Positions 6,361 to 53,037 of a stretch of DNA of 64,000 nt are shown here, piece by piece. The first letter of the stretch is position 1; every line of letters begins with the position of its first letter. The DNA is taken from contig WTXG01000163.1 in NCBI GenBank assembly GCA_022496185.1, positions 1 through 64,000 of the forward strand, read 5' to 3'. Below the pieces are notes generated by a model. That model did no database searches and had not been told where the DNA came from. It saw only the letters and a list, made by a program, of their open reading frames with translations. This DNA comes from Multifurca ochricompacta (lineage: Eukaryota > Basidiomycota > Agaricomycetes > Russulales > Russulaceae). A program made the translations under genes and the position numbers.

Positions 6361-7296
6361 CCCACCACTGACTCTGATCCATCTCCATCAAGTAATGAGG
6401 GGGTTGAGGTGGATCTTGACAGGTTGTCAGATGAGGAGGGTGAGCTGATAGACAAGCTCAATGAACAGCTTGGTTCTGATTCAGATCCAGGCTCCAAGTT
6501 GGGTGGTGCAGATGAAGATGATCCAGAATGGGATTTGGAAGAGGGTGAGACACAAGTGAAGGATCTTGCATATGTATTTTGCCCAGCATGCCACAGAAAG
6601 CAGATCCTTCATATCTTCATAAAACACTTCTGTCAGCATCCAGCTTTTTCTGAACAGAATGAGGGACCATGCAGTGCAATGGAAATTTGCAAGTGCACTG
6701 TCACAGAAATGTATCAGTTCTGTCACCAATGGGGACTTTGGGAAGTGTGGGGATACCTTTGGACTGCATGGTATGTGCTACCCAAGTGGAAACTCTGGGC
6801 ATGCTCAACATCTCCATACATATCTTGGTGGCAAACAATGATGGGAACTGAAAACTTCTGGAGGCAGTTAAAGCACAATCACCTGCATCACATGCTTTGA
6901 CCTTGCCTTGATCTGCTTGTCTGGATTATCATAACTAAAGTCACACCTGAGTACATTGCACATGCAGAAGCCCTTGAAGACACATATCATTTGGGCCACT
7001 CAAAGCCACTTTCAACCTATCCAAGGTACTTCAAATTGTCTTGGAAACAGCTTGCAGAAGCATCCATCAGCAGGACTAGTTATATTACAGATGTTACTAC
7101 ATGGACATGCAATTGCAGACAGCAAAAGTATCACAGCCAGCACCTATGTAAACACCTTGTCCAATCAGTACAACCTCCACCCATGCACTTCTGGTGTCAA
7201 GTTGTCTGTCACCACATCTTGCCACTTTACTGCCACCCTGCTCTTGTATCCAATATCAATGGGATGGAGATTGAGCATGTTGACACAGTCAGGTGT

Positions 7297-7894
7297 TGTG
7301 ACACTTTCTTGCTAGTATTTCGCATTTTCTCTCTTTTTTGTCTTCTATGCCCCTTTCTTTCACTGTATACCTTATCAGATCCACTTATCTGATGGCCATA
7401 GTCTGGACAAGGGATTCAACTCCCATGTCATCTGATTGATGATCTCATAGTTGATGTCATAGACCTTGTGACCTTAGTATGACCTCATAGATGATATCAT
7501 GACCATTGTGACCTACTATGATATCATTTGTACAAGACTCTAGACTATGACTTCATAGTAGCCACATTGTATTTAAGGACTACAATAAATCCAAGGACAG
7601 ACTAAGTCTGTTCTCCTTGTACCAATCAAAGGTCCTTAGGAAGTCCCTTCAGCCCTCTTCCAAGATGTGACTTGAGAGGGTTTGGCTCACCAGTAACTCC
7701 AGCAAAGGCTCTTGCCTTGCTATCTGAAAACCCTGACTTCACATGCAATGTCCAGACTCATTGCCTTGATCCATACCAGCTGCGCATTGTGACATCTTGA
7801 CCTGACTTGACACTTACATCTCTTGACTGCCTTGATTGACTCTGACTCTGACCTGAACCTGAACCAATGCACGCCGAAGGACCTGTGTGTGACA
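7297..7894 (+). mobile_element. Solo LTR, TGTGACACTTTC family (left arm)
   Basis: A 598-bp sequence from TGTGACACTTTC to GTGTGTGACA is flanked by perfect GGTGT duplications (7292-7296, 7895-7899). It contains a TATA-like GTATTTAAGG at 7569 and a palindrome at 7593-7617. The 222-bp element copy at 39 kb has the same site with a single GGTGT and no LTR, which proves insertion. No internal retroelement domain remains. Confidence 0.92.
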
Positions 7895-7957
7895 GGTGTT
7901 ACATGATGCAACTCTGCATGACCTCATATAGGAGGTTGTGTACCACTATGAACCTGA

Positions 7958-8033
7958 GGCCATGTAGCTCAGTGGTTTAGAGCACTGGACCTGGCTTGTC
8001 CAGAGGTCTTGGGTTCAATCCCCAATGTGGCCA
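7958..8033 (+). tRNA. tRNA-like sequence in 222-bp element (left arm)
   Basis: The 76-nt sequence folds as a cloverleaf: acceptor GGCCATG/TGTGGCC, D stem GCTC/GAGC, T stem TTGGG/CCCAA with loop TTCAATC. The A box (TAGCTCAGTGG) and B box (GGTTCAATCC) match RNA polymerase III consensus. A TTTT run lies shortly downstream. The anticodon stem is best drawn with 6 bp (CTGGAC/GTCCAG) and loop CTGGCTT, nominal anticodon GGC. This is abnormal, so a working tRNA-Ala is doubtful. It sits inside a mobile element. Confidence 0.65.
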
Positions 8034-9458
8034 TTTCTTTTCTAGTGTGTGAGCCAGGGTCCTGTGTAAGGTCCCTTGATTGGGGTGCATGTTTAGCCAA
8101 CAGAGCACCCTGATCTAGATGAAGGCAGTATTACTGATGGAGATGATCACGTTTGGATGGGAAATCCAGATATGCTGGTGGAAGGCTGATGGCAAGAGTT
8201 TGATCTTGAGGGGGTGCTAGGCAGGTGGCTGTGGAGTGTGATGTCAATGAGTACTGAAGAATTGTCATCATTGGCCATACATGACATGGAGGAGGTACAA
8301 GGACTGCTCAATGATGGAGATGAGAGTGATCTTGAGGAAGAAGTACATCAATGACTCAAACAATCATCAGAACAGTTACTAATTCTCATCAAAGCTACAA
8401 ATCAAAATTAATGCACTTTCATCATGGGCAGACAAACTTGTTGATGCAGCCAAGATTATCTGATTGCAACTCCCACACAAAAATTGAATCTGGATCAACA
8501 GCATGGTGTCGCAGGACATCAGAGCCAATGTTAGTTGTCTGGTAAATGATGTTCAACATCTAGAGAAGACAGGAACACGACAACCATGCACCTGGGCCTG
8601 CGCTGGTGATTGTGAGGCTGCATGGACCTCATGGAACACCATGGGATATCAAATCTGAGGTAGGATCTTAGATTTACAATGATTTACTTCTACATTCCAT
8701 GTAATGCATAATACAGCTTGCATATTTTATTCTATGTACTAAAAAAATGGTTTCCTGCTGTCAAACACCCAAAACTGATAAACACGACTCCAATGCAATA
8801 AAATTGCCCTTTGTTGTTGAATTTGTGGAACAGGCATAGCACAACTTGTACTAGATACTACATTACTACTAGCTATTTCACCTTGTTTAGACTTAGAGGC
8901 TTAGATGCAGTCAATAATGCAATAGCAATTGCTTTATCTATAGCAGATTCAATGTACTATATCAGCTACTAAATTAAATGAATGCATTAAATGCATTATC
9001 TTGTTATCTCGTTTGATAATGTGATTTGATCACATGTCAGATCTTAGATGTACATCCTAAGTATCTAATTAATTGCAAACATGTTTTTGACTTATGTAAT
9101 CACATCGAACCGCTATCCCAGAATATTTGCTTTTGATTACTTTACATCATGTGATTCGGCACAACGTGCTGGGTGAATAGCATCCAGTATGGTTACATGG
9201 CTTGTCCTCACAAAAGATCATCGAGGATGTGGACATGAACATGAAGCCCTGTGGTCACCCCAGCACCACATTGTGACGCATCACGTGATGTACATACATA
9301 GACAAACAATATGTAACATGCCTCATAGCTATCTGCATTGGAACATGTATTTCAGTTTCAGGTGTTCAACAACAGGAAACCATTTTTTTAGTATGTAGAA
9401 TGAAATATGCAAGCTGTAATATGTATTGGAGTAGCAGCCACAGCATGGATAGATACCA

Positions 9459-10581: not shown

Positions 10582-11935
10582 AATACCAAGAGGTAATCGG
10601 AAGCCTCTCAGATATTGTTTGTCTCTGTATGTACATCATGTGATGTGTCACAATGTGCTGAGTGAATTGCAGTCAGTGACTGTGTGAGTTTGAAGCAGAG
10701 AGAGGTTCCAGGAGAGAGAAAAGGAGAGAGAAGGGACTCGACATCAATGAGAACGCTGAGACAGACAAGTAGCCTCGCAGACTGGATGCTATTCACCCAG
10801 CATGTTGTGCCAAATCACATGATGTAAAGTAATCAAAAGCAAATATTCTGGGATAGCGGTTCGATGTGATTACATAAGTCAAAAACATGTTTGCAATTAA
10901 TTAGATACTTAGGATGTACATCTAAGATCTGACATGTGATCAAATCACATTATCAAACGAGATAACAAGATAATGCATTTAATGCATTCATTTAATTTAG
11001 TAGCTGATATAGTACATTGAATCTGCTATAGATAAAGCAATTGCTATTGCATTATTGACTGCATCTAAGCCTCTAAGTCTAAACAAGGTGAAATAGCTAG
11101 TAGTAATGTAGTATCTAGTACAAGTTGTGCTATGCCTGTTCCACAAATTCAACAACAAAGGGCAATTTTATTGCATTGGAGTCGTGTTTATCAGTTTTGG
11201 GTGTTTGACAGCAGGAAACCATTTTTTTAGTACATAGAATAAAATATGCAAGCTGTATTATGCATTACATGGAATGTAGAAGTAAATCATTGTAAATCTA
11301 AGATCCTACCTCAGATTTGATATCCCATGGTGTTCCATGAGGTCCATGCAGCCTCACAATCACCAGCGCAGGCCCAGGTGCATGGTTGTCGTGTTCCTGT
11401 CTTCTCTAGATGTTGAACATCATTTACCAGACAACTAACATTGGCTCTGATGTCCTGCGACACCATGCTGTTGATCCAGATTCAATTTTTGTGTGGGAGT
11501 TGCAATCAGATAATCTTGGCTGCATCAACAAGTTTGTCTGCCCATGATGAAAGTGCATTAATTTTGATTTGTAGCTTTGATGAGAATTAGTAACTGTTCT
11601 GATGATTGTTTGAGTCATTGATGTACTTCTTCCTCAAGATCACTCTCATCTCCATCATTGAGCAGTCCTTGTACCTCCTCCATGTCATGTATGGCCAATG
11701 ATGACAATTCTTCAGTACTCATTGACATCACACTCCACAGCCACCTGCCTAGCACCCCCTCAAGATCAAACTCTTGCCATCAGCCTTCCACCAGCATATC
11801 TGGATTTCCCATCCAAACGTGATCATCTCCATCAGTAATACTGCCTTCATCTAGATCAGGGTGCTCTGTTGGCTAAACATGCACCCCAATCAAGGGACCT
11901 TACACAGGACCCTGGCTCACACACTAGAAAAGAAA

Positions 11936-12011
11936 TGGCCACATTGGGGATTGAACCCAAGACCTCTGGACAAGCCAGGTCCAGTGCTCTAAACCACTGA
12001 GCTACATGGCC
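11936..12011 (-). tRNA. tRNA-like sequence (right arm)
   Basis: Exact mirror of 7958-8033, with the same acceptor, D, T and 6-bp anticodon stems and the same A and B boxes. Function as a tRNA is doubtful for the same reason. Confidence 0.65.
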
Positions 12012-12074
12012 TCAGGTTCATAGTGGTACACAACCTCCTATATGAGGTCATGCAGAGTTGCATCATGTAACACC

Positions 12075-12672
12075 TGTCACACACAGGTCCTTCGGCGTGC
12101 ATTGGTTCAGGTTCAGGTCAGAGTCAGAGTCAATCAAGGCAGTCAAGAGATGTAAGTGTCAAGTCAGGTCAAGATGTCACAATGCGCAGCTGGTATGGAT
12201 CAAGGCAATGAGTCTGGACATTGCATGTGAAGTCAGGGTTTTCAGATAGCAAGGCAAGAGCCTTTGCTGGAGTTACTGGTGAGCCAAACCCTCTCAAGTC
12301 ACATCTTGGAAGAGGGCTGAAGGGACTTCCTAAGGACCTTTGATTGGTACAAGGAGAACAGACTTAGTCTGTCCTTGGATTTATTGTAGTCCTTAAATAC
12401 AATGTGGCTACTATGAAGTCATAGTCTAGAGTCTTGTACAAATGATATCATAGTAGGTCACAATGGTCATGATATCATCTATGAGGTCATACTAAGGTCA
12501 CAAGGTCTATGACATCAACTATGAGATCATCAATCAGATGACATGGGAGTTGAATCCCTTGTCCAGACTATGGCCATCAGATAAGTGGATCTGATAAGGT
12601 ATACAGTGAAAGAAAGGGGCATAGAAGACAAAAAAGAGAGAAAATGCGAAATACTAGCAAGAAAGTGTCACA
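12075..12672 (-). mobile_element. Solo LTR, TGTGACACTTTC family (right arm)
   Basis: Mirror of 7297-7894 with the same GGTGT target duplication. The insertion therefore predates the inverted duplication. Confidence 0.9.
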
Positions 12673-13608
12673 ACACCTGACTGTGTCAACATGCTCAATC
12701 TCCATCCCATTGATATTGGATACAAGAGCAGGGTGGCAGTAAAGTGGCAAGATGTGGTGACAGACAACTTGACACCAGAAGTGCATGGGTGGAGGTTGTA
12801 CTGATTGGACAAGGTGTTTACATAGGTGCTGGCTGTGATACTTTTGCTGTCTGCAATTGCATGTCCATGTAGTAACATCTGTAATATAACTAGTCCTGCT
12901 GATGGATGCTTCTGCAAGCTGTTTCCAAGACAATTTGAAGTACCTTGGATAGGTTGAAAGTGGCTTTGAGTGGCCCAAATGATATGTGTCTTCAAGGGCT
13001 TCTGCATGTGCAATGTACTCAGGTGTGACTTTAGTTATGATAATCCAGACAAGCAGATCAAGGCAAGGTCAAAGCATGTGATGCAGGTGATTGTGCTTTA
13101 ACTGCCTCCAGAAGTTTTCAGTTCCCATCATTGTTTGCCACCAAGATATGTATGGAGATGTTGAGCATGCCCAGAGTTTCCACTTGGGTAGCACATACCA
13201 TGCAGTCCAAAGGTATCCCCACACTTCCCAAAGTCCCCATTGGTGACAGAACTGATACATTTCTGTGACAGTGCACTTGCAAATTTCCATTGCACTGCAT
13301 GGTCCCTCATTCTGTTCAGAAAAAGCTGGATGCTGACAGAAGTGTTTTATGAAGATATGAAGGATCTGCTTTCTGTGGCATGCTGGGCAAAATACATATG
13401 CAAGATCCTTCACTTGTGTCTCACCCTCTTCCAAATCCCATTCTGGATCATCTTCATCTGCACCACCCAACTTGGAGCCTGGATCTGAATCAGAACCAAG
13501 CTGTTCATTGAGCTTGTCTATCAGCTCACCCTCCTCATCTGACAACCTGTCAAGATCCACCTCAACCCCCTCATTACTTGATGGAGATGGATCAGAGTCA
13601 GTGGTGGG

Positions 13609-19151: not shown

Positions 19152-20302
19152 TGTTGACATGGCATGTGTCTTGAGGTGCTTCAGGCATCTAGGTTAGGGT
19201 CTAAGCTGTGCAAGATTAGATTAGATATTGATTCGGAGTGTAAGGATGGCTTGGGCGTTGGACGCGAAACCTCCGGTTATCACCACTTCTGGCAGGACCC
19301 GTTTGCTCTCATTCTTCCATACTATACTGTCAATAAATTTTCTAACATTTGCCTGACTTTAGTTTCGGACAGACTCTGACACTGGTGCAAAGCATGATTG
19401 ATCTATGGTACAAGTAATTTTACTTAGCATATTACAGGGATTGTGCACGTTCCGGGCCGCCTGCCTATTCTTTTCCGTACACCCGGCTACCCAGTTTCTC
19501 CCTTACTCCCTTTTACTTATTCCACTTTCGTTCACCCCACATGGCTTCACCTCTGTTAATTTCTAAAAACATTCCTTCAGCTAGGTCTCTCCACAAGTAT
19601 ATAAAGGTACATACAATGCTCGTAGTAGACCAGCGAGCAACTAGCAATCTAGCTTCTCTCTCTCTCTATCTCTCTCTCTCTTTGTGTGCAAAAGAACAGT
19701 TATTGAACAAGGCGCAAGGTCAATCGGAACCATCAGCACCGTCATCAGTAAACATTCAGCATGATCCAACGCTCATCGACTTCATTACGTCGCGCGGGCT
19801 CTTCTCTCTCCTCTTCTCAACTTACTGCTCACCTTACTCCTCAGGGAACAGGCTTTGCTTTGCACTCACTGCAGATAGGCTCTGCACAGGAGTTTCGGAC
19901 TTTTACCATATCATTATTACTTTCTTTCTTGCGATGCGCAGCAGCTGACTGATGTACCTTAGTAATCCTGTATAGCATGTGATATCTCACTGGCCAATGG
20001 CCTTTGTCCCTCAGTAGTACATTCTAGCGCATTCCATTGCGCACAGACCATCTATTGATAAGTATATAAGGGTGTCTGTTTCGTCCTCTACACTTCAGAG
20101 TTTCCTTCACCTCTGAAGTGTAAGTCCTATCTCTCCTACTTACTACTGTACCTTTGACTAACCATCTCCTGTAGATAACTTGTCTTTCTAGGTGTGTAGT
20201 ATAGTATAATAGAGTTTCCTTCACCTCTGAAGTATAACTTGTCTTTCTAGCCTTACACGCTAACCACAGTCAGTATCACTGCGCGCACATGCCTGTTCTT
20301 CA
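19152..20302 (+). repeat. Copia I 5' LTR (interrupted)
   Basis: Without the 650-bp insertion and its 4-bp duplication the LTR is about 497 bp, matching the 498-bp 3' LTR. A TATA box (AGTATATAAGG) lies at 20061. An 11-bp stem (ACACTTCAGAG / CTCTGAAGTGT, 20090-20121) lies just downstream. Confidence 0.88.
19239..19888 (+). mobile_element. Solo LTR, TGTAAGGATGG family, in copia I LTR
   Basis: The sequence TGTAAGGATGG...CTCTGCACA is flanked by GGAG on both sides (19235-19238, 19889-19892). The 3' LTR at 26390 shows the uninterrupted site. It contains a TATA-like AAGTATATAAAGG at 19597. Relatives are at 49501 and upstream of each CHAT gene. Confidence 0.85.
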
Positions 20303-20543
20303 GGTTATGGGCCCTGCCGCTCTTTACTGATCTGGCACTCCTTTTTGATCACAGTCCAAAAAATCTTTCAAGCTCAACAAAGCTTCAAAAGTTCATTCCC
20401 AATAACTTTTCCTTGTGAGCTTCTCTTTCAATTATTTGCCCTTAACTGTCCACAAGGTGGTGCGCTTTATGTGCCCACCTTGATCTGTTTGGCTAGCCCT
20501 TTCTTAAGGGTTCTTGCAAAAGGTGACGAGGGACCCTTAGTGG

Positions 20544-21055
20544 TGTCAAACAATCATGCTGCTGGTTATACTGACTGTGGTTAGTAGCGGGTTAGGCTAA
20601 AAGACAAGTTAAACTTCAGAGGAAGAAGAACTCTATAATACTATACTACTGACCTAAAAGACAAGTTAACTACAGAGAGAATGTTAGTCAAAGGAAAAGT
20701 AGAAAGTAAAGTAAGACGACTTACACTTCAGAGGAAGAAGAACTCTGAAGTGTAAAGGACAAAACAGACACCCTTATATACCCATGGGGGCCAGGGGAAA
20801 TGGTCTGTGCGCACTGGGAATAAGTCCACAAGTGCCGGACAATAAACAGAGAGGGATAAAGGCCATTGGCCAAAGAGATATCACATGCTTACTGCACATT
20901 ACTAAGTCCATCACTAATCAGCTGAGTAAGGTGAGAAAGAAATGTAATAAAGATAACATAAAAAGTCCGATACTCCGGAATCTAATCTAATCTAATCTAC
21001 AGCTAAAGCGATCCTCAGATGCCTGAAGCATCTCCAGACACATCCCGTGTCAACA
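20544..21055 (-). mobile_element. Solo LTR of copia II family in copia I leader
   Basis: A 512-bp sequence TGTCAAACAATC...GTGTCAACA is nearly identical to the LTRs of copia II. Perfect AGTGG duplications flank it (20539-20543, 21056-21060). The copia II leader near 36380 shows the uninterrupted counterpart of the site. Confidence 0.92.
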
Positions 21056-21753
21056 AGTGGGTGAAACACCTTAAGCTCCTCATGTGTGCCCTAAGTAAAT
21101 AGTGTTCATAGTTGTAGCTGGGTTTTCGTCCCATAGATAGCTTTAGTAGGCCACTTGCCCAGAAGGCTTGAGGCTTTAGGTCTGGTCAATGCTTGGCTCG
21201 ATCCGTAAGCCGGGTTTAGCCACCCACTGGTAGAGTTTAGGGTCTAGAACAAGGCATGGGTAGTCACTCCCATGACGCTTGGGCTCAATACAAGTAGGCC
21301 ACACTACTATAGTATTTACACAGTAGCTAGAGGGTTTTGTCTCTGGGCAGAAGTATTCACTGCCATGTTGTGGGGGTTCGCCCCACCAGAGGAAACCCAA
21401 TAGCCTACTACAGTCATGGCCCCAACCATCTAGGGCTTAATCATGGACTCCACCACCAGCACTAGAGGAAGGGCTCTATACCCTTTGTCTCTAGTGGAAC
21501 TTGCGGTTGGCTCCTCCATGACATGACTCCCCTTCTATTTACACAGTATCCGCCTGATGTGGCTCTGGGATCTGTTGTAGAATGGGGTTAGACAGCTTCA
21601 CTATACTACTTAGAAGTCACACATCAAAGGCAGGACTTTCTTAAGTTCTGAAGCATAGCACCACAGAATGGATGGGCCCTCTTAAATGAGACCTGGACAA
21701 CTGGTTCTAACTGCTCCTTGGAACCAGGATCAAAAAACTTCAAATCATCTCAA

Positions 21754-24021
21754 ATGGCTAACATCGTTTTCCCTTCCACCTTCAAATTCGACAAGCTTGA
21801 TGGCTCCAACTGGCCACAGTGGTCAGTATCTTTTACCGCCCTGTTGAGGATCAATGGCATGAGAAGGCACATCACACATGATGGGCCTGAATATGCCAAT
21901 CCTCCAGTACAGAAGGATGATGAAAAGGAAGCGGACTACCAGGCAAGGTTTGCTGCCTGGTCTGAACCCATAATCCAGGAGTGGAGTAGGGTTGAAGAAG
22001 TCTTGATGGGTTTACTGGTGCTGGTCGTCACCAGTGAAGTTTATTCTCAGGTTGCCTCTGATAGGAAGTATCCGTCAGTCTGCTCAAAGTATGAGCAGCT
22101 GGAGTCCTTGTATGGCACTGTGGGTAGCATGGCCACCTACAATTTGTGGTGCTCAGTTTCGTCCTTCTGTTTAGAGGAAGGCAAACAATTCAGGCCCCAA
22201 TTGCAGCATGTGCTAGATGCAAGGAATACCCTGAAGGAGAATGGGATGGAGGTCTCTGACCTCCAGATGAGCTTTATTTTGCTCCAGTCCCTTCCCCCAT
22301 CATACAGTGCCATTGCTGGCTCAATCCTGGCTTCAGGTCCTCCTGAACGCCTTTCCCCTCAGGACCTCATTCAGAGGTTCCTAAATGAGGAAAGCCGACT
22401 TGCTGGCCCCACAGGAAGTGGTGTTGGGGCTGCCCTTAACAAGGCAGCCCATGTCAACAAAAATAAAAACAAAAAAGTACAATTTATCATGCCACAACCT
22501 GCAGGTGCATCATCGTCCAATGATGTCACCTGCTTCTACTGCCAGAAGCTGGGCCACAAGGCAAATGAATGTCGGCAGAGGAAACAGGATCAGCAGAATG
22601 CCGCAGCTGGAAAAAAGGGCAATCAGAAGAAGGCGCAAGGCACCAGTGTACCATCATCTTCCCACCAAGTAGCTACAATAGTTAATGGTAGTGGAAGAAT
22701 ACAGGAGGTGCATGAGACACCTCACATTAAACTTTATACCTTGAATACGACTGAAGAGATCTTCCAAGATGACGGATTTGCCTGGATGATGGATAGCGGT
22801 GCCACCACCCACTTCACACCCTTTGAGTCAGACTTCTATGAATATCTGCCTCATTCAGGACACACTGTTACAGTGGCGGATGGAACCGTGGTTCCAATAG
22901 AAGGAGTAGGAAGCGTCCACATAAGGACCAATAAAAATTATATATTGGAACTTAACAATGTCTTCTACATGCCATCAGCAGGAAATTGCATCTTATCTAC
23001 AAGTCATATCACCAACAGAGGTGGTATGGTCTTATTTGATCAATATAATGTCGCAATAGAGTATAAAGGACAAAGAATAGCGGAAGGAATCAAGGCTGGG
23101 GATCTATACTGGATCCAAGGGACAATAGTGGATAAATCAACCGCTGCCCTGAATACTGCATCAACCAGCCTTGATACCTGGCATCTTAGAATGGGTCATA
23201 TGTCTAAACAAGCCCTGAAAAGATATGCTTCTGAGGCCATAAAAGGTCTCAGTTTAAAAAATAGCCAAGAGGAAGTAAAGCCTTGTCATGGCTGCAAAAT
23301 GGGAAAATCTCATTGCCTTCCTTTCCCTCCCTCTCATAAGCGGGCTTCAGCACCCTTGGAGGTCATCCATAGTGACCTAGTTGGTCCACTTCAATGTACC
23401 TCAATACAAGGGCATTTATATTTCGCCACTTTCATAGATGACTTTAGCCGCAGTGCTATAGTTGTTCCAATGAAGGCAAAACATTACTTCAAATCGGTCT
23501 TTGCAAATGTTAAGGCATTCCTAGAAAATAAAACAAATAATAAAATAAAGACCTTACATACAGACCGTGGTGGCGAATACATTAATAATGAGCTGAAGTC
23601 CTTACTAAGTGAGGCTGGCATAGAGCATAAACTTACAATGCCATATTCCCCACAACAGAATGGAAGAGCTGAAAGGTTCAATAGAACCATAATGGAAAAA
23701 GCCACTAGCATGCTTCATCATGCTGGGCTTTCTCTTGGCTTTTGGGAGTGTGCTGTTTCTACAGCATGTCACATATATAACAGAACTCCCATCCGTTCTA
23801 ACAAGTGGAGGACACTGCTAGAGCTTCTGGTTGGGGACATACCAGATGTCTCTTATTTTAAAGTCTTCGGATGTGAAGCATACTATCATGTTCTGGAAAA
23901 CAAGTGGCAAAAATTGGATCCTAAAGCCAAAAAGGCTGTCTTTGTTGGGTATGAGCCAAATAGCAAAGGCTACATTCTATGGGATAGACATACCCAGTCC
24001 TTTGTTTGTCCAGAGATGTGA
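21754..24021 (+). CDS. Copia I Gag-protease-integrase frame
   Basis: The first ATG in the frame is at 21754 (MANIVFPSTFKFDKLDG); an upstream TTG at 21718 is unlikely. A Gag helical region (NLWCSVSSFCLEEG...ARNTLKENGMEV) precedes a CCHC knuckle (CFYCQKLGHKANEC). The protease motif is WMMDSGATTHF. Integrase has its zinc site (HLRMGH...CHGCKMGKSH) and the DDE residues in HSDLVGPL, HTDRGGEY and PQQNGRAERFN. In intact copia elements one frame continues into RT. Here the frame ends at 24019-24021, just where copia II reads on through RDVTF, so a small indel near 24000 shifts it. Confidence 0.88.
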   Translation: MANIVFPSTFKFDKLDGSNWPQWSVSFTALLRINGMRRHITHDGPEYANPPVQKDDEKEADYQARFAAWSEPIIQEWSRVEEVLMGLLVLVVTSEVYSQVASDRKYPSVCSKYEQLESLYGTVGSMATYNLWCSVSSFCLEEGKQFRPQLQHVLDARNTLKENGMEVSDLQMSFILLQSLPPSYSAIAGSILASGPPERLSPQDLIQRFLNEESRLAGPTGSGVGAALNKAAHVNKNKNKKVQFIMPQPAGASSSNDVTCFYCQKLGHKANECRQRKQDQQNAAAGKKGNQKKAQGTSVPSSSHQVATIVNGSGRIQEVHETPHIKLYTLNTTEEIFQDDGFAWMMDSGATTHFTPFESDFYEYLPHSGHTVTVADGTVVPIEGVGSVHIRTNKNYILELNNVFYMPSAGNCILSTSHITNRGGMVLFDQYNVAIEYKGQRIAEGIKAGDLYWIQGTIVDKSTAALNTASTSLDTWHLRMGHMSKQALKRYASEAIKGLSLKNSQEEVKPCHGCKMGKSHCLPFPPSHKRASAPLEVIHSDLVGPLQCTSIQGHLYFATFIDDFSRSAIVVPMKAKHYFKSVFANVKAFLENKTNNKIKTLHTDRGGEYINNELKSLLSEAGIEHKLTMPYSPQQNGRAERFNRTIMEKATSMLHHAGLSLGFWECAVSTACHIYNRTPIRSNKWRTLLELLVGDIPDVSYFKVFGCEAYYHVLENKWQKLDPKAKKAVFVGYEPNSKGYILWDRHTQSFVCPEM

Positions 24022-26102
24022 CGTTTAATGAAGAGTCCTTCCCATCCCACTCTGTAGTGGACAACAGAGATAAAGGAAAGGAACAAGCTGTTCCTGTAGA
24101 AGGAGGGTCTGTCCAACCCTCACCAGCAATAGCCACAGTTCCTCAGGATCCTGTGTATAAGGATACCGAGGTTGAGGAACAGGAGGTAGTGGAGCCTCCT
24201 CAAATAAATCCTGAGCCTACCACACCCAATAATGAAGTAGACACACACACAGACACCATATATCAGACACCACCGTCCCAAATAATGGAACCCTCCCAAC
24301 TCCCCACCAGAACTCGTGCCGTTAGAAAGTCAACAAAAAAGGCTAGAGGCAAACTTTCCCAACCAGTTTTTACTAGGGAAAGTCCATGCTCTGAACAACG
24401 GTCTGTGGCTATACAAGAAGATTTAGATCTTGATATTGTTATGCCAAGACATTCACATCGTCTGAATCCTCGCTTTTACAATGAGGATAATGCAGAGTTC
24501 GTGCAAGGTTCATCCAGACTTGGGACCATGGAGCTGCTAAATGCCGCCGGTGTCTCTTATAGAGACCCCCTGACCTTTCAGGAGGCGATGCAGTCTGATA
24601 ATGCTGCTGAGTGGCTTGAGGCATGCCAATATGAAATAGATGCCTTAAAGAAGTTAAATGTGTGGCACCTTGAGGATCTTCCTGAAGGAAGAAAGGCTGT
24701 CAAATCTAAATGGGTTTTTAAATTGAAACCAGATGGACAGTTTCATGCTAGGCTCATGGCAAAGGGTTTCACTCAAATAGAAGGAGTGGACTTTGATGAA
24801 ACATTCTCCCCAGTCGCCAGATTTGAATCACTTCGTTTATTACTAGCGTTAGCTGTGCTAGAAGATTGGGAAATCCACCAGATGGATGTCAAATCGGCAT
24901 TCCTTCATGGCGATCTGGATGAGGAGATTTATATGGAGCAACCTGTTGGTTTCATCATTGCTGGACAAGAGTCCAAAGTTTGTAGGCTACAGAAAGCTTT
25001 ATATGGCCTCAAACAAGCCTCCCAAGCATGGAATCTTCAATTTCATGCAGTTCTAAATGAACTGGGCTTCACTCGGATGTACTCTGATGCAGGAGTATAT
25101 GTGTATCATCACCATGGGGGGGATGATTCACTTTTCGTCATTCTATATGTTGATGACATCACTATACTTGGATCTTCAAAAGATAAGATAACATGGCTGA
25201 AGGAATCTCTATCTAGCCGATATGAGATGACTGACCTGGGAGAAATCCAGTCATATCTTGGTGTTAACATCACCAGAGATCGTCCTAACAAGATGCTGGA
25301 AATTGATCAGGCAGCTTATGTCTTGTCTATTCTTGAGAAGTTTGGAATGAGGGATTCCAATCCAGTATACACTCCCCTACCAGCCAGCGTGGATGCACAT
25401 CTGGTCAAGTTTGAAGGCCAGGCATCTACTTCAGAAATAAAGAAGTATCAACAGCTAATGGGGTCACTGCTATGGGTGCAGATTGGAAGCAGACCCAACA
25501 TTAGCTTTGCTGTTGCGCACCTTAGTCAATACGCTTCCAATCCTTCACAACATCATCTGCGCCTAGCAAAGTATGTTCTAAAGTACCTCAATGCTACTAT
25601 GAACTACAGGGTGTGATATTCTGGAGGGAATGAAGAGAGTGGCCTTCATGGCTTTGCAGATTCCTCATGGGGAGATCAAGAGGACTGCCACTCCACTTCA
25701 GGCTACGTCTATATGCTTGCAAATGGAGCCATATCCTGGTGCTCTAGAAAGCAAAAGACTGTAGCACAGTCCACCACAGAAGCTGAATACATGAGCCTAG
25801 CTGAGGCTTCCAATCAGGCTGCATGGTATAGGACGTTTATGGAGGAATTGGGATATGAAATTACTTCACCCATACAACTCCATTGTGACAATAAGGGTGC
25901 TGTGGACTTGGCACTGAACCCTGTCACAGGAAGGCGGTCAAAACACATACCAATAAAGTACCATGCAATCAGGGAGTATGTTGAATTGCATCTAATAGAT
26001 TTAGTGTGAACTCCCACTGGTGAAATGCTGGCAGATGGCTTTACAAAGTCTCTACCAAGAGCATCACATGAAAACATGGTTACTAGACTTGGGCTTATAT
26101 GA
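24006..26102 (+). pseudogene. Copia I reverse transcriptase and RNase H frame
   Basis: This frame resumes after the shift with RDVTFNEESFP and carries RT blocks KSKWVFKLKPDG, FDETFSPVARFESLR, HQMDVKSAFLHGD and YGLKQAS, then the catalytic LYVDDITIL. RNase H follows with GYVYMLANGAISWCSRKQ, TEAEYMSL and HCDNKGA. Two in-frame TGA codons interrupt it at 25614-25616 and 26007-26009. At both, copia II has an Arg codon starting CG, so CpG transition is the simple explanation. It would make element cDNA if intact; it is dead now. Confidence 0.88.
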
Positions 26103-26303
26103 GTATATTGTCGACCTCGAGAGTGACGCAAGAAGTGTGTGCACGTTCTCGACCTCGAATGTGATGTGTGCAACTGAACGCGTTTCAGTTTGCATAATAC
26201 ACTTCAGATCACTCCTCTCCTCTCGTCGACTCACTCTCACACCTCTTAATTGGCGATGTGCTCATTTAACTCATTTTGACCTGATGCCTTAATCATGGAG
26301 GGA

Positions 26304-26801
26304 TGTTGACATGGCATGTGTCTTGAGGTGCTTCAGGCATCTAGGTTAGGGTCTAAGCTGTGCAAGATTAGATTAGATATTGATTCAGAGTTTCGGACTT
26401 TTTACCATATCATTATTACTTTCTTTCTCGCGATGCGCAGCAGCTGACTGATGTACCTTAGTAATCCTGTATAGCATGTGATATCTCACTGGCCAATGGC
26501 CTTTGTCCCTCAGTAGTAGATTCTAGCGCATTCCATTGTGCACAGACCATCCCTTGATAAGTATATAAGGGTGTCTGTTTCATCCTCTACACTTCAGAGT
26601 TTCCTTCACCTCTGAAGTGTAAGTCCTATCTCTCCTACTTACTACTTTACCTTTGACTAACCGTCTCCTGTAGATAACTTGTCTTTCTAGGTGTGTAGTA
26701 TAGTATAATAGAGTTTCCTTCACCTCTGAAGTATAACTTGTCTTTCTAGCCTTACACGCTAACCACAGTCAGTATCACTGCGCACACATGCCTGTTCTTC
26801 A
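26304..26801 (+). repeat. Copia I 3' LTR
   Basis: The 498-bp LTR repeats the 5' LTR without the solo LTR insertion. It is preceded by ATGGAGGGA (26295-26303) and contains the same TATA box and stem-loop (near 26570-26620). Confidence 0.92.
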
Positions 26802-36610: not shown

Positions 36611-37121
36611 TGTCAAACAATCATGCTGCTGGTTATACTGACTGTGGTTAGTAGCGGGTTAGGCTAAAAGACAAGTTAACTTCAGAGGAAGAAGAACTCT
36701 TTAATACTATACTACTGACCTAAAAGACAAGTTAACTACAGAGAGAATGTTAGTCAAAGGAAAAGTAGAAAGTAAAGTAAGACGACTTACACTTCAGAGG
36801 AAGAAGAACTCTGAAGTGTAGAGGACGAAACAGACACCCTTATATACCCATAGGGGCCAGGGGAAATGGTCTGTGCACACTGGGAATAAGTCCACAGGTG
36901 CCGGTCAAGAAACAGAGAGGGATAAAGGCCATTGGCCAAGGAGATATCACATGCTTACTGCGCATTACTAAGTCCATCACTAATCAGCTGAGTAAGAAGG
37001 GAAAGAAGTGTAATAAAGATAACATAAAAAGTCCGATACTCCGGAATCTAATCTAATCTAATCTACAGCTGAAGCGAACCTTAGATGCCTGAAGCATCTC
37101 CAGACACGTCCTGTGTCAACA
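36611..37121 (-). repeat. Copia II 5' LTR
   Basis: 511 bp, about 99% identical by eye to the LTR at 30598-31108. Confidence 0.93.
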
Positions 37122-39248: not shown

Positions 39249-39487
39249 TCAGGGCAAAGGGGTCGAGGGAGGGCGATGGTGCCGTGCCCAATGAACGCGT
39301 TGTGTCCAAGTGCATATCTCCTTGACCGGGATCTCCTGGGCCAGATGTCCGAAATGCACGATGCAAGTAAAGAACTTGCACGCATTTCATTTTATGGGTA
39401 ACCCAGGTATCAAAACAACTATCCAGGGGTTACCCCTACCAATTTCTATGTGTTCGTCAATTTTTTTTGCATTCTGTGTGGTTATCT

Positions 39488-39709
39488 TGTTGACACAGTC
39501 AGGTGTCGCATGATGCAACTCTGCATGACCTCATATAGGAGGTTGTGTACCACTATGAACCTGAGGCCGTGTAGCTCAGTGGTTTAGAGCACCGGACCCG
39601 GCTTGTCCAGAGGTCTTGGGTTCAATCCCCAACGTGGCCATTTCTTTTCTGGTGTGTGAGCCAGGGTCCTGTTTAAGGTCCCTTGATCGGGGTGCGTGTT
39701 TAGCCAACA
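39488..39709 (+). mobile_element. 222-bp TG...CA LTR-like element with tRNA-like core, intact copy
   Basis: Starts TGTTGACACAG, ends TTTAGCCAACA, with perfect TATCT duplications (39483-39487, 39710-39714). The arm copies of the hAT-like element show the empty site. It lacks the LTR found in the arm copies of this element. Internal features are the cloverleaf at 39565-39640 and a TTTCTTTTC run after it. Confidence 0.9.
39565..39640 (+). tRNA. tRNA-like sequence in intact 222-bp element
   Basis: The 76-nt cloverleaf has acceptor GGCCGTG/CGTGGCC, D stem GCTC/GAGC and T stem TTGGG/CCCAA. Relative to the arm copy, acceptor pairs change G-T to A-T and G-C to G-T, so pairing is kept. The anticodon stem CCGGAC/GTCCAG has one mismatch and loop CCGGCTT, nominal anticodon GGC. 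Isotype and activity are uncertain. Confidence 0.65.
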
Positions 39710-40088
39710 TATCTGACAGGCTTTTCATCAATGTTCTATAACATCCTATCTAATCATCACTGTATACTGGATTTTAGTTGTGCTTGTATAAAATTGAAAG
39801 CAGAATAATAAAACAAAAATGGAATAATTAATTATCTTAATCTTCTGAACATAAAACAAGAGTCATTGAGGGATCTTAAGCAGCCACAAATGAACATGTT
39901 GTGTATCTTCTTGGTCCAGGAAGGCCCAGGCTGGTTATCCAAAATGCGCGATGCAAGTAAAGAACTTGCACACGTTTTCACAGGTGACCTGCAGGTAACC
40001 CACAGGTTACCCGTACCCATAGTGATGGGTACGGGTATGGGTACAGGTACCAATGAGGATACCCCAGGGTTACCCCTGCCAATCACTA

Positions 40089-42027: not shown

Positions 42028-45000
42028 ATGGCCCAAGAACGTAAGTGCACAACCTAGTCACCTCTTTCCCGAGCATATGCCCTTCTATCATCAGTAATTC
42101 ATTTTTTCATATTCGCAGTCTCCATTATGGAACTCGACCTAGTCATCGCTTATCATCAGCGTGCTCTCTCAAGGATCCCTCGATCTCATCCCTCTTACAC
42201 TGCTTGCATCCACCTTCTGGCTAAATCACGATTCATACGCTATGAGCTATCAGAACAGAAGGAGGATCTTGACAAATCTATTGTTCATTCCACCGAAGCA
42301 ATCTTTCTTCCACCTTCCTGGGATTATACCTAAATGTGGTTCAAATCTTCTTTCAACTCGCACTTTCCCTTTTTCGTCGTTCCAAGAAGTTCAAGCAAAC
42401 TGAAGATGCGAAGTGTGCGGTTGAATACCTTCGTCATCTCAGAGGACTACCCCTTGATATCGTTGAGGTCCCGCACAAAGTCATTACAACATCGCTTGTT
42501 CAGGCGTTGGATATTCAAGTTGAGCTGGAAGTGGATGGGACGGGGGATATTGAGGAGATGGTGATGCTCTGCCAAGAACTTCTCACCTGTCACAGCTCAG
42601 AAAATTATCCAACTCACGCCATTGACGGCTTGGTCCATGCCATTTTATGCAAATTTTGTCAAGGGAAGCAAGTAGAGCCGTTAGATGGAGTCATTCAATG
42701 CCTTCGGGACGCGCTGAACATCTCCCCGCCAGGCTCTCGTGTAGTTCTTCACGGACTGGCTGCTTCCCTCATAATTCGATACATAACAAATTATTCAAAG
42801 GACAATTACGAGGAGGCAATGACCCTCCTAGAAAGTGTCATTGCCTCAAGTCCTCTTCCGGATGATCAGATTCAGGCTTCGGTATTTGCCGCGATTCTTG
42901 CGCGCGTTCGGGCTAGCTTCTATCCAAACCCAGAATATTTAGAGGAGGCGACTTCCCGTTTTCGTACCTTACTCGGCTCTTCTTCCCTTGGCAACAACCT
43001 TCGGCATAGTTTTACACGCGTGATGGCATCCCTCGCTAAGAAGCGCTTCAAGAACTTCGGTCTCACAGAGGCTCTTCAAGAATCACATTCATATACGTCC
43101 GAAATGGTCAGCCTTGCCTCATCGTCCTCAGCTCACATCACATCTCAAGAAGAAATTGACAAAGTTGATGCTGTTCGGGCGGCGTATCCGATGAAGGTGG
43201 TAGAGGAGAAAATTCAAAGTCTTCGAAAACTGATCTCCAAGACTCCGCCAATGTCCTCCGAGCGCAACGCGTACCTCCAACGTCTTGTGGATTGGTATAC
43301 AACCAAGTTCTCTCGTACCAACGATATCACGGACCTTGAAGAGGTGATCAAATGCCGCCGGGTACTAGTTGCGTCAGCTGACACGAGTCATCCATTTGGA
43401 TTCCAACCGGCACTCTTCTTGGGCGTTGACCTCTACATGGCGTTTAAGTGTTCGAATAAAATGGAGTACCTTGACGAGTCTATCACCGTGCATCGTGGTG
43501 TTCTCGAAATGCAAAGTGCCCGGCGATACCACTTCACTTTAATCAACCAACTTTTTAACTCTTTATCCGAACGCTTGTTGTTGCTTCGTCGAAGACAGGA
43601 TTTGGATGAAATCATTGAGCTATTTCCTTTGGCTGTCAATGACAAATTCGCGAAGGTACCTGACCGATTTGCTTATTCATGCATCTGGGCATCCCTTGCT
43701 CGAAAAGCCAGACACCCATCTGTCTCTGCTGCATACCAAATGGCCATGTCATTAATACAGACCTCATTTATCTCCGCGCCGACCTTAGAAATACAGCATG
43801 CTCGACTCGTCGCAATGCGAGGGCTCTGCGACAAGATGCCGCTGGACTACGCGTCTTACCAGATCGAAATGGGTCAATTCACTCAGGCTATTGAGACTCT
43901 AGAACAAGGGAGGGCCTTACTATGGTCTGAAATGCGTGGTCTTCGCAATTCCATGGATCAACGTTTTGAATTCAATTCACCTTTAGTGACGAAACTTGCA
44001 GCAATTAATCAGGATCTCGAGTCACTCACCATGTCTGTCACGCCGAGTGGGACTATAGAGATCAGTGATGGTGGATCACAGATTGGTGATGGGATGGACC
44101 CATTCGGTCGTCTGGTGGTCAAGCAACAGAAGCTTCTGGAGGAGCGAGATGTGCTCCTGTCGCAGATCCAAGAATTACCAGGATTTGGTGAGTTTCTGAA
44201 GACGCCATCATTCGAAAATATTCGTGTTGCTGCTTCACATGGGCCAATCGTCATTATCAACCATAGCGAGTGGCGTTCCGATATCCTCATTCTCCTTCGC
44301 GACTCTTCCCCTTCCCTTATCCTTACAACTAACGATTTCTATGACCGTGCAAATAAACTAAGAGATCGCCTAGTGGTCGCACGAAAGGAGGGTCTCGACT
44401 CAGACAAATACAAGCGCGCTTTACGTTCTGTACTCGACGGACTTTACAAACTCGTCGGCAGACCAGTCATCGACAGGCTACGTGGTTTGGGCGTACCAGA
44501 ACAATCACGAATCTGGTGGTGTCCGACCTCCGTTTTCTGCTCACTTCCACTTCATGCGATGGGCCCAATCCCATCAGATGACGGTGTCAAGCGATACTTT
44601 TCAGATTTATATATCCCCTCATATACACCCACACTCTCTGCACTCATCGAGTCTCGCAAACCCAGTCCAAAAACGTCGATCCAACCTTCATTACTCCTTG
44701 TGGCTAATCCAGATGAATCCTTACCAGGTGCTTTTGGAGAGATGGAAATCATACAGTCTCTCAATTCGCGGCTGCCGGTGGCCACCCTCTGTGGGAAGAA
44801 CGCAACACCGGCTGGTGTGGTGGAAGGACTGCGACATCACGGATTTGCACATTTCGTGTGTCATGGAAAACTCGAGACTGGGAAACCATTCGATGCATCA
44901 TTCAAGCTGTTTGGTGATGAGCGCCTTACTCTACTTGACATCGTACGCTCTCGACTGCCTGCTGCTGAATTTGCGTTCCTTGCTGCATGTCACACTGCGG

Positions 45001-45281
45001 AATTGACAGATGACAGTATCGCTGACGAGGGACTTCATCTAACTGCGGCAGTGCAATACTGTGGGTTTCGAAGTGTGGTCGGGACGATGTGGGAGATGGC
45101 AGATATAGATGGAAGTGAAATCGCAGAGAATTTCTACAAGTCGATGTTCTCAAGGAATGGAGAAGGGGTACCTTATCACTCGAGGTCTGCGAGGGCGCTT
45201 CGCGATGCGACGCGGAAGATGAGGAGAAAGAAAGGGATGACTCTGGAGCGGTGGGTGAACTTTGTTCATTATGGTGCGTGA
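42028..45281 (+). pseudogene. TPR-CHAT protein 1, single frameshift
   Basis: Exon 1 is 42028-42040 (ATG GCC CAA GAA C), the intron 42041-42118 (GTAAGT...TTCGCAG), and exon 2 begins at 42119. The frame stops at 42331-42333 after LPPSWDYT because one G is missing in CCTGGGATT (CHAT2 has CCTGGGGATT). The rest, 42336-45281, is fully open and encodes TPR-like helices and a CHAT domain with catalytic His (FVCHG, codon at 44862) and Cys (LAACHTA, codon at 44988). The next in-frame ATG is at 42558. The one-base loss in a G run could be a sequencing error. Compared with CHAT2, the C-terminal third is almost identical and the TPR part much less so. Confidence 0.85.
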
Positions 45282-45660
45282 TGGAGGAAAGCTTTCGCTA
45301 GTGGTTAGTATCTTAATAACGTTTGGGTAAGAGCCTTCGGCTTCACCTACTTACATCGTATGTCAAGGAATTTGTATAGATACTTTTTTGTTCGATAGTA
45401 TATCAGTTCGTGTGGAGGTATATGATTAGATATAGTATTTATTTTTTGGCATCACCCGTGGGATTTGTTTAAAAAATAACTAGTTTGAGTATCGCTTAAG
45501 GACGGTTGTGCATCTTTCTTCTCGAAATCACCACCATCTGCTTGAGCTTGTCCCTCGGATCGCTCGCACTGCTGGCTTTTAGAGTAATTAGATACGCACC
45601 ATAAACTGTCCACAATCATTGTTTTTTATCCCCCACTGAACAAACCACCCCCATTCAACA
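45282..45660 (+). other. 3' flank of CHAT1
   Basis: No gene is seen. The sequence matches the flanks of CHAT2 (to about 56480) and CHAT3 (62922-63300), so it is part of the duplicated unit. Confidence 0.6.
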
Positions 45661-46367
45661 TCAGAGGTGGATGGCTGCCCTAGCTACCGCCACAAAACAT
45701 AGAGATGGGGCCTCAGACCCCACCTCCATCTCACCCCTCACATTCTCCCAGCTACAAACTACGACAACTGAGCTCAATACTGCCCTACAGGTAGCAGACC
45801 TACTCCAACGAACCCCAGGTTTGCCACGACTGGGCTTTTGCCAGGCCATCACAGACCCAGGACATCGCAGCCATGAAACTAACCCCCCTCTCTGAGACAC
45901 TGTTGGTGACAATGCCTTCAACAATACTCAAAGACTTATGTCACCAACCTTTTAGCTGACCTATCTGATAACGTCGCAGGCTACAGCTTGTATTACCTGG
46001 GCCAATCACTCACCCCCTTAACAAGGACTCTGAACTTGGCATCTCTACTGCCCAAGCCACCATCACAGTGACCACAGTGGCATCTATGTATAGTGACATA
46101 GGGAAGCATGAAGACCCTGCTCTCCAATCGTGGGCCTCACGCCATCCTCATGGACACGTCTTGCAGGCTTGTTCCTCTCAGTGCTCATCAGAGGCACCCT
46201 CAGGTCCCCAGATCTGAAACAACTGACAGGACTGGAATTCCTTCCTTGCACAGATACCACCTCGTTTCACAACATGACGCCCTGGCCACACACGGAGGTT
46301 GATCATATCCACATGATGCTCGATCAAGTGGCCGGCATCTTCAACACTCGAAGTGATGTCCTCCACG
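45661..46367 (+). pseudogene. Unrecognised broken gene in unit tail
   Basis: The segment aligns with 63300-64000 downstream of CHAT3. Fragments of protein-like sequence occur in several frames (ALATATKHRDGASDP..., GFCQAITDPGHRSHETNP, and later TFRLPLSAHQR-like text). The unit 3 copy keeps a longer frame (63509-63928). No known domain is visible. A hAT-like element interrupts it at 46368; sequence continues at 46963 (CCATGAATCAGG). Confidence 0.4.
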
Positions 46368-46954
46368 TAGTGTTCGCCACGGGTAACCCGCGGGTAAAAA
46401 CACATGGACCCGTACCCATACCCGTATGTACCCGGACCCTTACACCAAGGGTACGGGTTTGCCATACTACGGGTACGGGTACACCACGGGTCGTATACCT
46501 GTGGGTAAGGGTAGATATTTACATTTTAAGTCTGATGGCCTAGAATAACATTGTACTACTTAAGCTATAATCCATTCATCATCTGGCCATTCTTCATTGT
46601 TTTTGGTATCAGGTTGAGATGCTGCATACTTTAAATCAGCAGTCTCTACATAACTGGCCTTCATCCAAGCTCCCAAACATAGAAGAGCCTGAGTTGTATG
46701 CAATGGACCACTGGGTCTGTATACAGTATCTACAATACATGTACTGTATAGTTTTTCTGTGGCTGGTGCAATGCCACATGCATTGCCGCCCTCATTGCCG
46801 CCCTTCCAATTTCAGCTTACCCGCTCTGGCGGGTAAGGGTTGGGTGTCTGCGGGTAGGGGTCACATGAGGGGTATGAAGATGTGACCCCGACCCGTACCC
46901 GCATGTACCCTGACCACATACCCGGCGGGTTGCGCCTACCCGTAGCGAACACTA
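46368..46954. mobile_element. hAT-like MITE copy C
   Basis: Ends TAGTGTTCGCCACGGGTA and the complement of TAGTGTTCGCTACGGGTA are terminal inverted repeats with one mismatch. Perfect 8-bp duplications CCTCCACG flank it (46360-46367, 46955-46962). The unit 3 tail at 63980 shows the empty site (CCTCCATGCCATGAA). Subterminal GGGTA/TACCC repeats are dense. It is 587 bp with no coding. Confidence 0.92.
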
Positions 46955-46962
46955 CCTCCACG

Positions 46963-47557
46963 CCATGAATCAGGTCCTTCCTTATACTACTTACATCAAT
47001 GCATACTAAACTTGGACTTGGCTCATGTATATAAAGACGAGTATCTTATCCATGAAATACTCGCTTTGTCTCTTCTCTTCATCTCATCGTGTGCCACGGC
47101 CTTCGAAGGTAGCGAACGGACTATCAACTTTCAACAGTTTTTGACGTACTGATATTCAGCCTCATCAACGCCTTCGGCATTATCGACGTTACCAATGTTT
47201 GACACAGACCAGTTCTCAGTCATTTACATTTGTGTGTTCAAGCCTTCAAGTGTAGCAAACATCCTACCAGACTTGCAAGGCCACTCGTCTGTCTCAGCGT
47301 TCTCATCGACGTCAAATACCTCCTCTTCCTTTTTCTCACTCTCGTGGAACCTCTCTCCGCTTCGAACTCATAGGGAGAGACGACCGATATCGAGTCTGGG
47401 TCAATGGACCTGTGTCTTTGTCTTTGGCTGGCTGCCGCAGGGTGTCCCTATTTTCTTGTCACAGTCCCAGGAAAGGCGTCCTCAAATTCACCGATGGCCA
47501 GCAATGGACAACAATTCAGAACACAATTGGGTGAAGACTTTCGGTGAGTAAAAAGAG
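46963..47557 (+). promoter_or_regulatory. Leader and TATA region of zinc-finger-like gene
   Basis: A TATA box (GTATATAAAG) is near 47027. Bases 47090-47380 (GTGCCACGGCCTTCGAAGG...CTCCGCTTCGAACTC) are the reverse complement of segments found at the head of each CHAT unit. A possible intron, GTGAGT...TTGCAG, spans 47544-47596. Confidence 0.5.
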
Positions 47558-48830: not shown

Positions 48831-49249
48831 AAGAAGCGAGGAAGGAGAATGATACAAGGCTTAATGACCTTGGCGGACTCTGGGATGGGATGGACTTCGG
48901 CGACACTCACGGACGCCCCTTTTATATAGCTGTGCCCCCCCCCCCCCTCATTGATTTACCAGCCTGATTCCCTTTTCAACAACAATTTTCCCGAGAAAAG
49001 CATTTTCTTCGATAGCTTGTTTTCAGTTTTCAACAGCTATTTGGATCATTAAGACGTCTTCGGCTTGTTACGGATAGTTATATTGTATTCAATTATTACT
49101 GCCAGTGTAGCTGCAAAAGGCGTACATTGTCGTTAACAAGCTCTTGAAGTGCAATGGACACCAAAAGAGGAAAGTTGAAGGTGTAAATAGAACAATGTTG
49201 AACTTGGTTGTCAGGGTCGTGAGTCTCAGTCTGAGGTCAGCTTCCGAGT
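48831..49249. other. Intergenic, nothing recognised
   Basis: Contains a run of 13 C at 48935-48947 and no supported gene. Confidence 0.6.
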
Positions 49250-49383
49250 TGGTTGTGATCGTGGCTTGTCCTCACAAAAGATCATCGAGAATGTGGACGT
49301 GAGAACGTGAAGCATTGTGACCCATCACGTGATGTACATACATAGACAAACAATATGTAACGCGCCTCATAGCTATCTGCATT

Positions 49384-50501: not shown

Positions 50502-50619
50502 CATAGCTATCTGCATTGGAATCGTGTATTTCACAGGAAACCATTTTTTTAGAATGTAGAATGAAATATGCAAGCTGTAATATGTATTGGAATAGCCGCC
50601 ACAGCATGGATAGATACCA

Positions 50620-52815: not shown

Positions 52816-52909
52816 AAGCTCAAAGTCAAGCAAACGGTATCGGGTTGACGGGCCGGGGAACAGCCGCCCTGCATTGCCTCCTCGCCTCGTTTTGTCCTCA
52901 TTCATGCTG

Positions 52910-52916
52910 TATAAAA
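52910..52916 (+). promoter_or_regulatory. TATA box of CHAT2
   Basis: TATAAAA lies 128 bases before the ATG at 53038 and is conserved in the paralogues. Confidence 0.55.
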
Positions 52917-53037
52917 CATGTATTATAGGCATGGTCTTCGCCGTTCTCCAGAACCCGCAACCATTTTCGCCATTTACTCTCTCAATTCATTGCCAGAGGA
53001 CCCACAGTTACCGTGATTCTTGTGCATTGAATAAAGC

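Follow-up and report, generated by a model that had tools for sequence, protein, structure and literature searches.

Putative Helenus-type TRIM retroelements in Multifurca ochricompacta and the apparent fusion of a sister family with a Copia element

Helenus elements, as described in the main text of PMC10886601, are TRIMs, mostly under 1 kb, whose long terminal repeats (LTRs) contain A and B boxes within tRNA-derived sequence and which carry a primer-binding site (PBS) and a polypurine tract; they were found there in rust fungi, Agaricus, Coprinopsis and Amylostereum. In fungi they make 5-bp target-site duplications (TSDs), form several families per genome and leave solo LTRs, some fungal families use the 3' end of initiator tRNA-Met as primer, and Kojima (2024) proposes Copia as the fungal helper because the PBSs are alike and one internal region is shared (PMC10886601). 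Cassandra is likewise a miniature LTR element with a polymerase III (pol III) promoter in its LTR, but it is a plant element that uses 5S rRNA rather than tRNA sequence; its PBS, TGGTATCAGAGC, starts like that of the elements described below, and its autonomous partner is called unknown (PMC7215508). Among Agaricomycetes, TRIMs were reported earlier from three of five Boletales genomes, in passages that make no mention of tRNA content (PMC5689174).

Here we describe a 222-bp unit in a 64,000-nucleotide stretch of Multifurca ochricompacta DNA (the window) that appears to share the structural traits of fungal Helenus, from the boxes, PBS and purine tract to the 5-bp TSDs, the several families, the solo LTRs and the initiator tRNA-Met primer. 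Its host, of the family Russulaceae in the Agaricomycetes, belongs like Amylostereum areolatum to the Russulales. A sequence-only reading of the locus had suggested a fungal, tRNA-based analogue of Cassandra; the analogy holds, but elements of this kind, fungal ones included, had already been described as Helenus (PMC10886601). As far as the main text of that study goes, Helenus is a known kind for which Multifurca is a new host genus, and our literature search, its scope ending short of Kojima's supplementary family table, returned neither Helenus in Multifurca nor a fusion of Copia to a pol III TRIM. In the same main text 'chimer' and 'template switch' are absent, and 'terminator' occurs once, about Cassandra (PMC10886601). 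Set against Helenus as described there, and found in neither the search nor that text, the Multifurca elements add fused insertions that indicate a helper, the use of different segments of one tRNA by helper and TRIM, and a single run of four Ts (T4) behind the tRNA-like module common to three families.

The 222-bp unit and its copies

The unit at 39488-39709 begins TGTTGACA, ends AGCCAACA and has TATCT on either side (Table 1). A second copy (7278-8102), flanked by the different perfect duplication GAGCA, confirms the two separate insertions first read from the sequence; it is split by a nested 598-bp TG...CA insert, probably the solo LTR of a different family. The third copy is no independent insertion, because it belongs to an inverted duplication whose two arms, 4741-9191 and 10778-15228 (4,451 bp each, spacer 1,586 bp), are 100% identical; this repeat is either a duplication of very recent date or an artefact of the assembly.

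Table 1. Features of the TRIM LTR copies and of Copia relatives in the window
Feature	Position	Strand	Remarks
Solo LTR, family 1, TG...CA, 222 bp	39488..39709	+	one of at least 45 full-length genome matches
TSD TATCT	left 39483..39487; right 39710..39714		
tRNA-like module, 76 nt, anticodon-like GGC	39565..39640	+	ARAGORN; Rfam RF00005, 49.8 bits
A box TAGCTCAGTGG	39572..39582	+	LTR positions 85-95
B box GGTTCAATCCC	39619..39629	+	LTR positions 132-142
T4 run CTTTTC	39645..39648	+	presumed weak pol III terminator and presumed end of R
Second copy, first LTR1 piece	7278..7296	+	
Second copy, second LTR1 piece	7895..8102	+	contains tRNA-like module 7958-8033
TSD GAGCA of second copy	left 7273..7277; right 8103-8107		
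TG...CA insert, 598 bp, nested in second copy	7297..7894	+	TSD GGTGT at 7292-7296 and 7895-7899
Third LTR1 copy	11867..12691	-	tRNA-like part 11936-12011
Helper Copia relative	19886..26801	+	84% identical to fused copies over leader and gag part, lower in LTRs
PBS of the 19886-26801 Copia	20303-20317		
Coding parts of the same Copia	21652-24021; 23988-25616		gag, integrase, RVT_2
3' LTR of the same Copia	26304-26801		
Further inverted LTR inside the same Copia	20568-21055		
5' LTR, second helper Copia relative	36611..37121	-	starts TGTTGACACAGG; then PBS GGTTATGGGCCCTGC

A genome search with the window LTR (LTR1), in which scoring covered 40 of the 246 first-look candidates, so that the count is a lower bound, returned at least 47 matches, at least 45 of which, the window copy included, span all 222 positions at 95-100% identity; chance origin of the unit is thereby excluded. 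The matches are mostly solo LTRs, together with 535-bp elements in which two 222-bp LTRs enclose an internal region of 91 bp. At least seven such family-1 internal regions were found, each of the seven lying between two LTR1 copies (one LTR being broken), and their use as query turned up a sister family 2 at 83-86% identity, with a full element of 534 bp (LTR 222 bp, internal region 90 bp) and at least 11 internal regions. Family 3 has a full element of 543 bp, LTRs of about 222 bp and at least two internal regions of 97 bp, and it has little in common with family 1 outside the tRNA-like module. The internal region starts, immediately at the LTR end, with the PBS TGGTAGCAGCAC, and a short purine tract precedes the 3' LTR (TAGGGGCG, TGGGGGCG and AGGGGGCA in families 1 to 3, respectively).

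Internal regions are present at no fewer than 20 loci (7, 11 and 2 by family). Fifteen of the 20 have the order LTR-internal-LTR with a perfect outer 5-bp TSD, which is all 15 of the testable ordinary elements, and one of these has a Copia LTR nested within its 5' LTR; at two further loci the 3' LTR is broken by another element and the TSD lies beyond the sequence examined. The last three, all with perfect TSDs, comprise two Copia-TRIM fusions and one inverted fold-back (L062, C122:35007-35602), in which two family-2 LTRs stand in opposite orientation, U5 ends outward, within one perfect TSD (CACAT) and which is apparently an integrated fold-back cDNA. LTR pairs differ at 0, 0, 0, 1, 2 and 11 of 222 positions in family 1, at 1, 3, 5, 6 and 7 positions in the five pairs of family 2 and at none in the single pair of family 3, so that some insertions must be recent; the 60 differences in the C511 pair proved to be an indel register shift and no true divergence.

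Our sample of solo LTRs, which leaves aside 12 full-length family-2 LTRs and several family-3 copies, holds 42 complete copies (32, 5 and 5 by family) with 38 distinct flanks, the remainder sharing flanks as duplicates. Perfect TSDs, always of exactly 5 bp, surround 34 of these 38 (27 of 30 in family 1, 3 of 4 in family 2 and 4 of 4 in family 3), and the imperfect flanks show one mismatch in two cases and 4 or 5 in the other two. A tRNA-type head with internal A and B boxes is equally what a tRNA-derived SINE would have, mobilised by a LINE and with only fortuitous TG...CA ends; yet all 34 perfect solo TSDs have the same length, the copies share their ends and are without a 3' tail, and copies paired in direct orientation carry PBS and purine tract within single outer TSDs. 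Given the pairing and the constant TSD length, the SINE reading, which the sequence-only reading had also disfavoured, was dropped as wholly improbable. By its sequence organization the unit is instead the LTR of a non-autonomous Helenus-type TRIM, and the direct pairs 90-97 bp apart, with PBS, purine tract and single 5-bp TSDs, uphold the view of 39488-39709 as the solo LTR of a TRIM-like family.

The PBS is, in turn, the perfect complement of the 3' end of a tRNA gene (L125, C24:473870-473954), which ends in ...GTGCTGCTA, once CCA is added. ARAGORN labels this gene as His with an intron; the intron is short and follows the anticodon, which reads CAT, and this triplet together with the GATCGAAAC T-loop leads us to take the gene to be that of initiator tRNA-Met. 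It is the one such gene found by pattern: a first initiator pattern matched nothing in the genome, a second matched two places, neither a tRNA by ARAGORN, and a third matched four, one of which, L125, is a tRNA. The PBS match to its 3' end is perfect over 12 nt in families 1 and 2 and over 9 nt in family 3, and the next-best matches in the compared list reach 7 nt at most, those shown at 7 being TRIM modules.

Several other repeats and genes of the window may be recorded. At about 39301-39480 and in the flanks of L095 and L116, LTR copies lie in or next to what is apparently one dispersed repeat containing GATGCAAGTAAAGAACTTGCACGC; this repeat, seen at family-1 and family-3 copies, may be a further small mobile element. 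The minus strand at 456-3727 holds gag and pol open frames of Ty3/gypsy type, with a partial match to a chromodomain. Three consecutive open frames of 1,002, 1,072 and 589 aa (42273-62264) belong to one CHAT-domain family, which looks like an expanded one in this species, as 37 of the 85 matches listed for the first frame come from Multifurca ochricompacta (62-100% identity, the window's own included).

The tRNA-like module and its T4 run

ARAGORN and Rfam RF00005 agree on a 76-nt cloverleaf in the first two window copies (57 bits by Rfam in the second, 7958-8033) and detect it in the third as well (11936-12011, minus strand), with TAGCTCAGTGG and GGTTCAATCCC inside it as A and B boxes, just as had been proposed from the letters alone. 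In sequence, this module is conserved between the families far better than the other parts of the LTR: families 1 and 2 agree at 73 of 76 module positions as against 58 of 80 in U3 and 46 of 60 in U5, and families 1 and 3 at 64 of 76 as against 35 of 97 and 29 of 60. The module body is closest to tRNA-Ile(AAT) among 32 sampled tRNA genes, which represent part of the genome's set (63 of 1851 candidates scored), although the anticodon-like triplets are those of Ala or Ser, a mismatch that would make it unlikely that the module acts as a tRNA. Nor is its fold unusual, the stability being ordinary in four sequences (z -0.5 to -1.1) and the minimum-free-energy structures no clean cloverleaves, and the idea of a special RNA stability was dropped on these values. 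A promoter role appears to be the better reading, and program-made tRNA counts for the Multifurca ochricompacta genome will take in TRIM copies.

The T4 run directly behind the module is the only run of four or more Ts in each LTR of the one full element inspected per family, in all of them as CTTTTC. In all 82 LTRs scored (86 LTR matches less three that end before position 200 and one lacking a B box), the 40 nt behind the module hold exactly one run of four Ts and none longer; as most of this identity comes from common descent, the three families are what counts as independent observations. Runs of five or more Ts follow 29 of the 32 tRNA genes sampled, L125 counted in. The other 31, identified by ARAGORN and representing 21 distinct cores, include 28 whose longest run has six or more Ts and one in which it has five; the two with T4 at most (L105 and L106) look mitochondrial. 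The initiator tRNA-Met gene itself has no run above four in 40 nt, with three T4 runs of which the first is also CTTTTC, which shows that T4 also occurs behind genuine tRNA genes in this genome. The absence of T4 from the rest of the transcribed span carries little weight by itself, with 22%, 33% and 75% of shuffles likewise free of one.

According to PMC9278858, five Ts are the minimum functional terminator in budding yeast in vitro and termination becomes relatively efficient only with six, a T4 terminator being helped by a nearby hairpin yet still weak. An element that bears a pol III unit at either end would be served by a single weak terminator, since read-through at the 5' LTR would yield the full RNA.

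The LTR could alternatively be a pol II LTR that holds a captured, inert tRNA gene, with the TRIM transcribed by pol II, an account that would fit the TATA-like stretches that lie some 22-33 bp before the tRNA-like part (CATATAGG in family 1, GTATATAAGG in family 2), the unremarkable fold of the isolated module and the T4 runs of L125, which make the contrast with tRNA genes less than absolute. An upstream TATA is, however, compatible with pol III genes too, family 3 has no TATA-like stretch of equal clarity, and between families 1 and 3 it is the module that was retained and not U3, with T4 behind it in all three families. We regard pol II transcription as unlikely and retain the putative pol III promoter.

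Copia-TRIM fusions and the candidate helper

Two family-2 loci join Copia to TRIM sequence. L057 (C85:57961-60628, minus strand) runs from a Copia 5' LTR through leader and gag into the family-2 internal region at the PBS and on to the TRIM LTR, with TGGGT on both flanks, whereas L058 (C12:52915-55699) runs from a Copia 5' LTR into gag, crosses into the TRIM 5' LTR at a point three bases short of the 3' end of its tRNA-like module and continues through the internal region to the 3' LTR, with CTGTA on both flanks. The Copia parts belong to one family (91.6% identical from LTR to gag), the gag being Copia-type by Pfam (Retrotran_gag_2 in L058). A 5-base flank match would arise by chance at about 1 in 1,000 per fusion. 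The single perfect TSD around each fusion indicates that fusion preceded integration, and since the outer ends are one Copia and one TRIM, both were used in one integration event.

In the template-switch complexes of Triticeae, matching 5-bp TSDs likewise mark a single integration, for which Sabot and Schulman (2007) proposed template switching between co-packaged RNAs; those complexes, however, have three LTRs with highly similar outer ones, whereas the outer LTRs of the Multifurca fusions are one Copia and one TRIM (PMC1950507). An intermolecular second strand transfer would account for two different outer LTRs. At the L057 junction, moreover, the gag of a Copia copy (L119) and the TRIM PBS have 11 bases in common (TGGTAGCAGCA), as would be expected if cDNA at the end of the TRIM template had re-annealed to Copia RNA. 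The fusions come from the assembly of one genome, in which an error is possible.

Nested insertions do occur between the two kinds of element, with a TRIM inside a Copia copy (C290, TSD GGATA) and a Copia LTR inside a TRIM (C598:91169), and the fusions could in principle be post-integration products of this sort, a TRIM having entered a Copia that then underwent deletion or conversion, which would leave them uninformative about the helper. A deletion within a nested pair would place Copia sequence beside a TRIM LTR with no outer TSD, whereas the flanks outside the Copia 5' LTR and the TRIM 3' LTR pair as one TSD in both cases (TGGGT, CTGTA); we consider an origin after integration very improbable and take the fusions as pre-integration products. 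C598:91169-92218 was rejected as a further fusion, being a nested Copia solo LTR with its own TSD; C66:66412 and C598:41419, whose far ends lie beyond the sequence examined, also resemble nested insertions.

The fusions thus name a likely helper Copia for family 2. For families 1 and 3 we infer the same helper; family 1 has LTR termini similar to those of the helper and the PBS of family 2, and the LTR of the Copia relative at 36611-37121 has its first 11 bases in common with the family-1 LTR. The earlier proposal of mobilisation in trans accordingly gains backing in family 2, through two Copia fusions that point to the helper, and would extend to family 1 by analogy with its sister.

Over 14 nt, or 15 nt in the Copia relatives of the window, the helper's own PBS (GGTTATGGGCCCTG) perfectly matches the anticodon arm of initiator tRNA-Met after splicing. 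Helper and TRIM therefore match different segments of one tRNA, and with the two PBSs so different, PBS likeness gives no tie between them. Nor was a shared packaging signal retained, as six comparisons of TRIM internal regions with Copia leaders gave no convincing common sequence: local alignment returned p of at least 0.5 in all six, and the longest-match test p of at least 0.24 in five, the remaining 11-nt match (family 3, c85; p 0.007) being unconvincing given six tests.

With a Copia PBS unlike that of the TRIM, the true helper might be a different LTR element primed at the 3' end of initiator tRNA-Met, of the kind reported for a rust Copia by Kojima (PMC10886601), and the fusions might reflect merely the abundance of Copia RNA; the fused Copia is indeed abundant, with at least 40 scored gag matches (the query's own place included) and 544 first-look candidates. 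The PBS TGGTAGCAGCAC, however, occurs exactly at 24 places in the genome, of which 16 are TRIM internal regions and eight are others, all inspected and none directly behind a CA end, a search by exact match that would pass over a partner with a shorter or altered PBS. Furthermore, a Copia relative and the TRIM agree in their LTR termini (TGTTGACACAGG and TGTTGACACAGT, respectively). We judge a different helper unlikely and keep the fused Copia as the candidate.

Drosophila copia is primed on the anticodon arm of initiator tRNA-Met, by a 5' half-tRNA. As a tentative and rather doubtful extension, the TRIM might exploit the helper's primer tRNA in a complementary manner, the Copia being primed on the anticodon arm and the TRIM on the 3' CCA end, with template switching in the shared particle leading to the fusions. 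Either the whole tRNA or the 3' half left over in the same particle might then serve the TRIM, with no competition for the helper's primer site.

A proposed life cycle and what it means

Taken together, the sequence data make it very probable that these are Helenus-type TRIMs, with a putative pol III transcript, reverse transcriptase and integrase presumably supplied in trans by Copia, and solo LTRs presumably arising by recombination. Transcription by pol III would begin in the 5' LTR, at its tRNA-like part, pass the weak T4 there and end at or beyond the T4 of the 3' LTR, and the product, about 400 nt long, would carry terminal repeats. This RNA would be packaged together with that of a Copia family; with the 3' end of initiator tRNA-Met as primer, Copia reverse transcriptase would copy it, Copia integrase would insert the product, and recombination between the LTRs would leave solo LTRs such as 39488-39709.

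The single weak T4 would explain, simply and testably, how full-length RNA can still be made when each end of the element carries a pol III unit. In the sources cited above, the helper of TRIMs with pol III promoters has so far been deduced from PBS and internal region, for fungal Helenus, or called unknown, for Cassandra; PBS likeness alone would have missed the candidate helper here. Fusions within a single TSD would be physical traces of shared particles, and they can be searched for wherever Helenus, Ajax or Cassandra occur.
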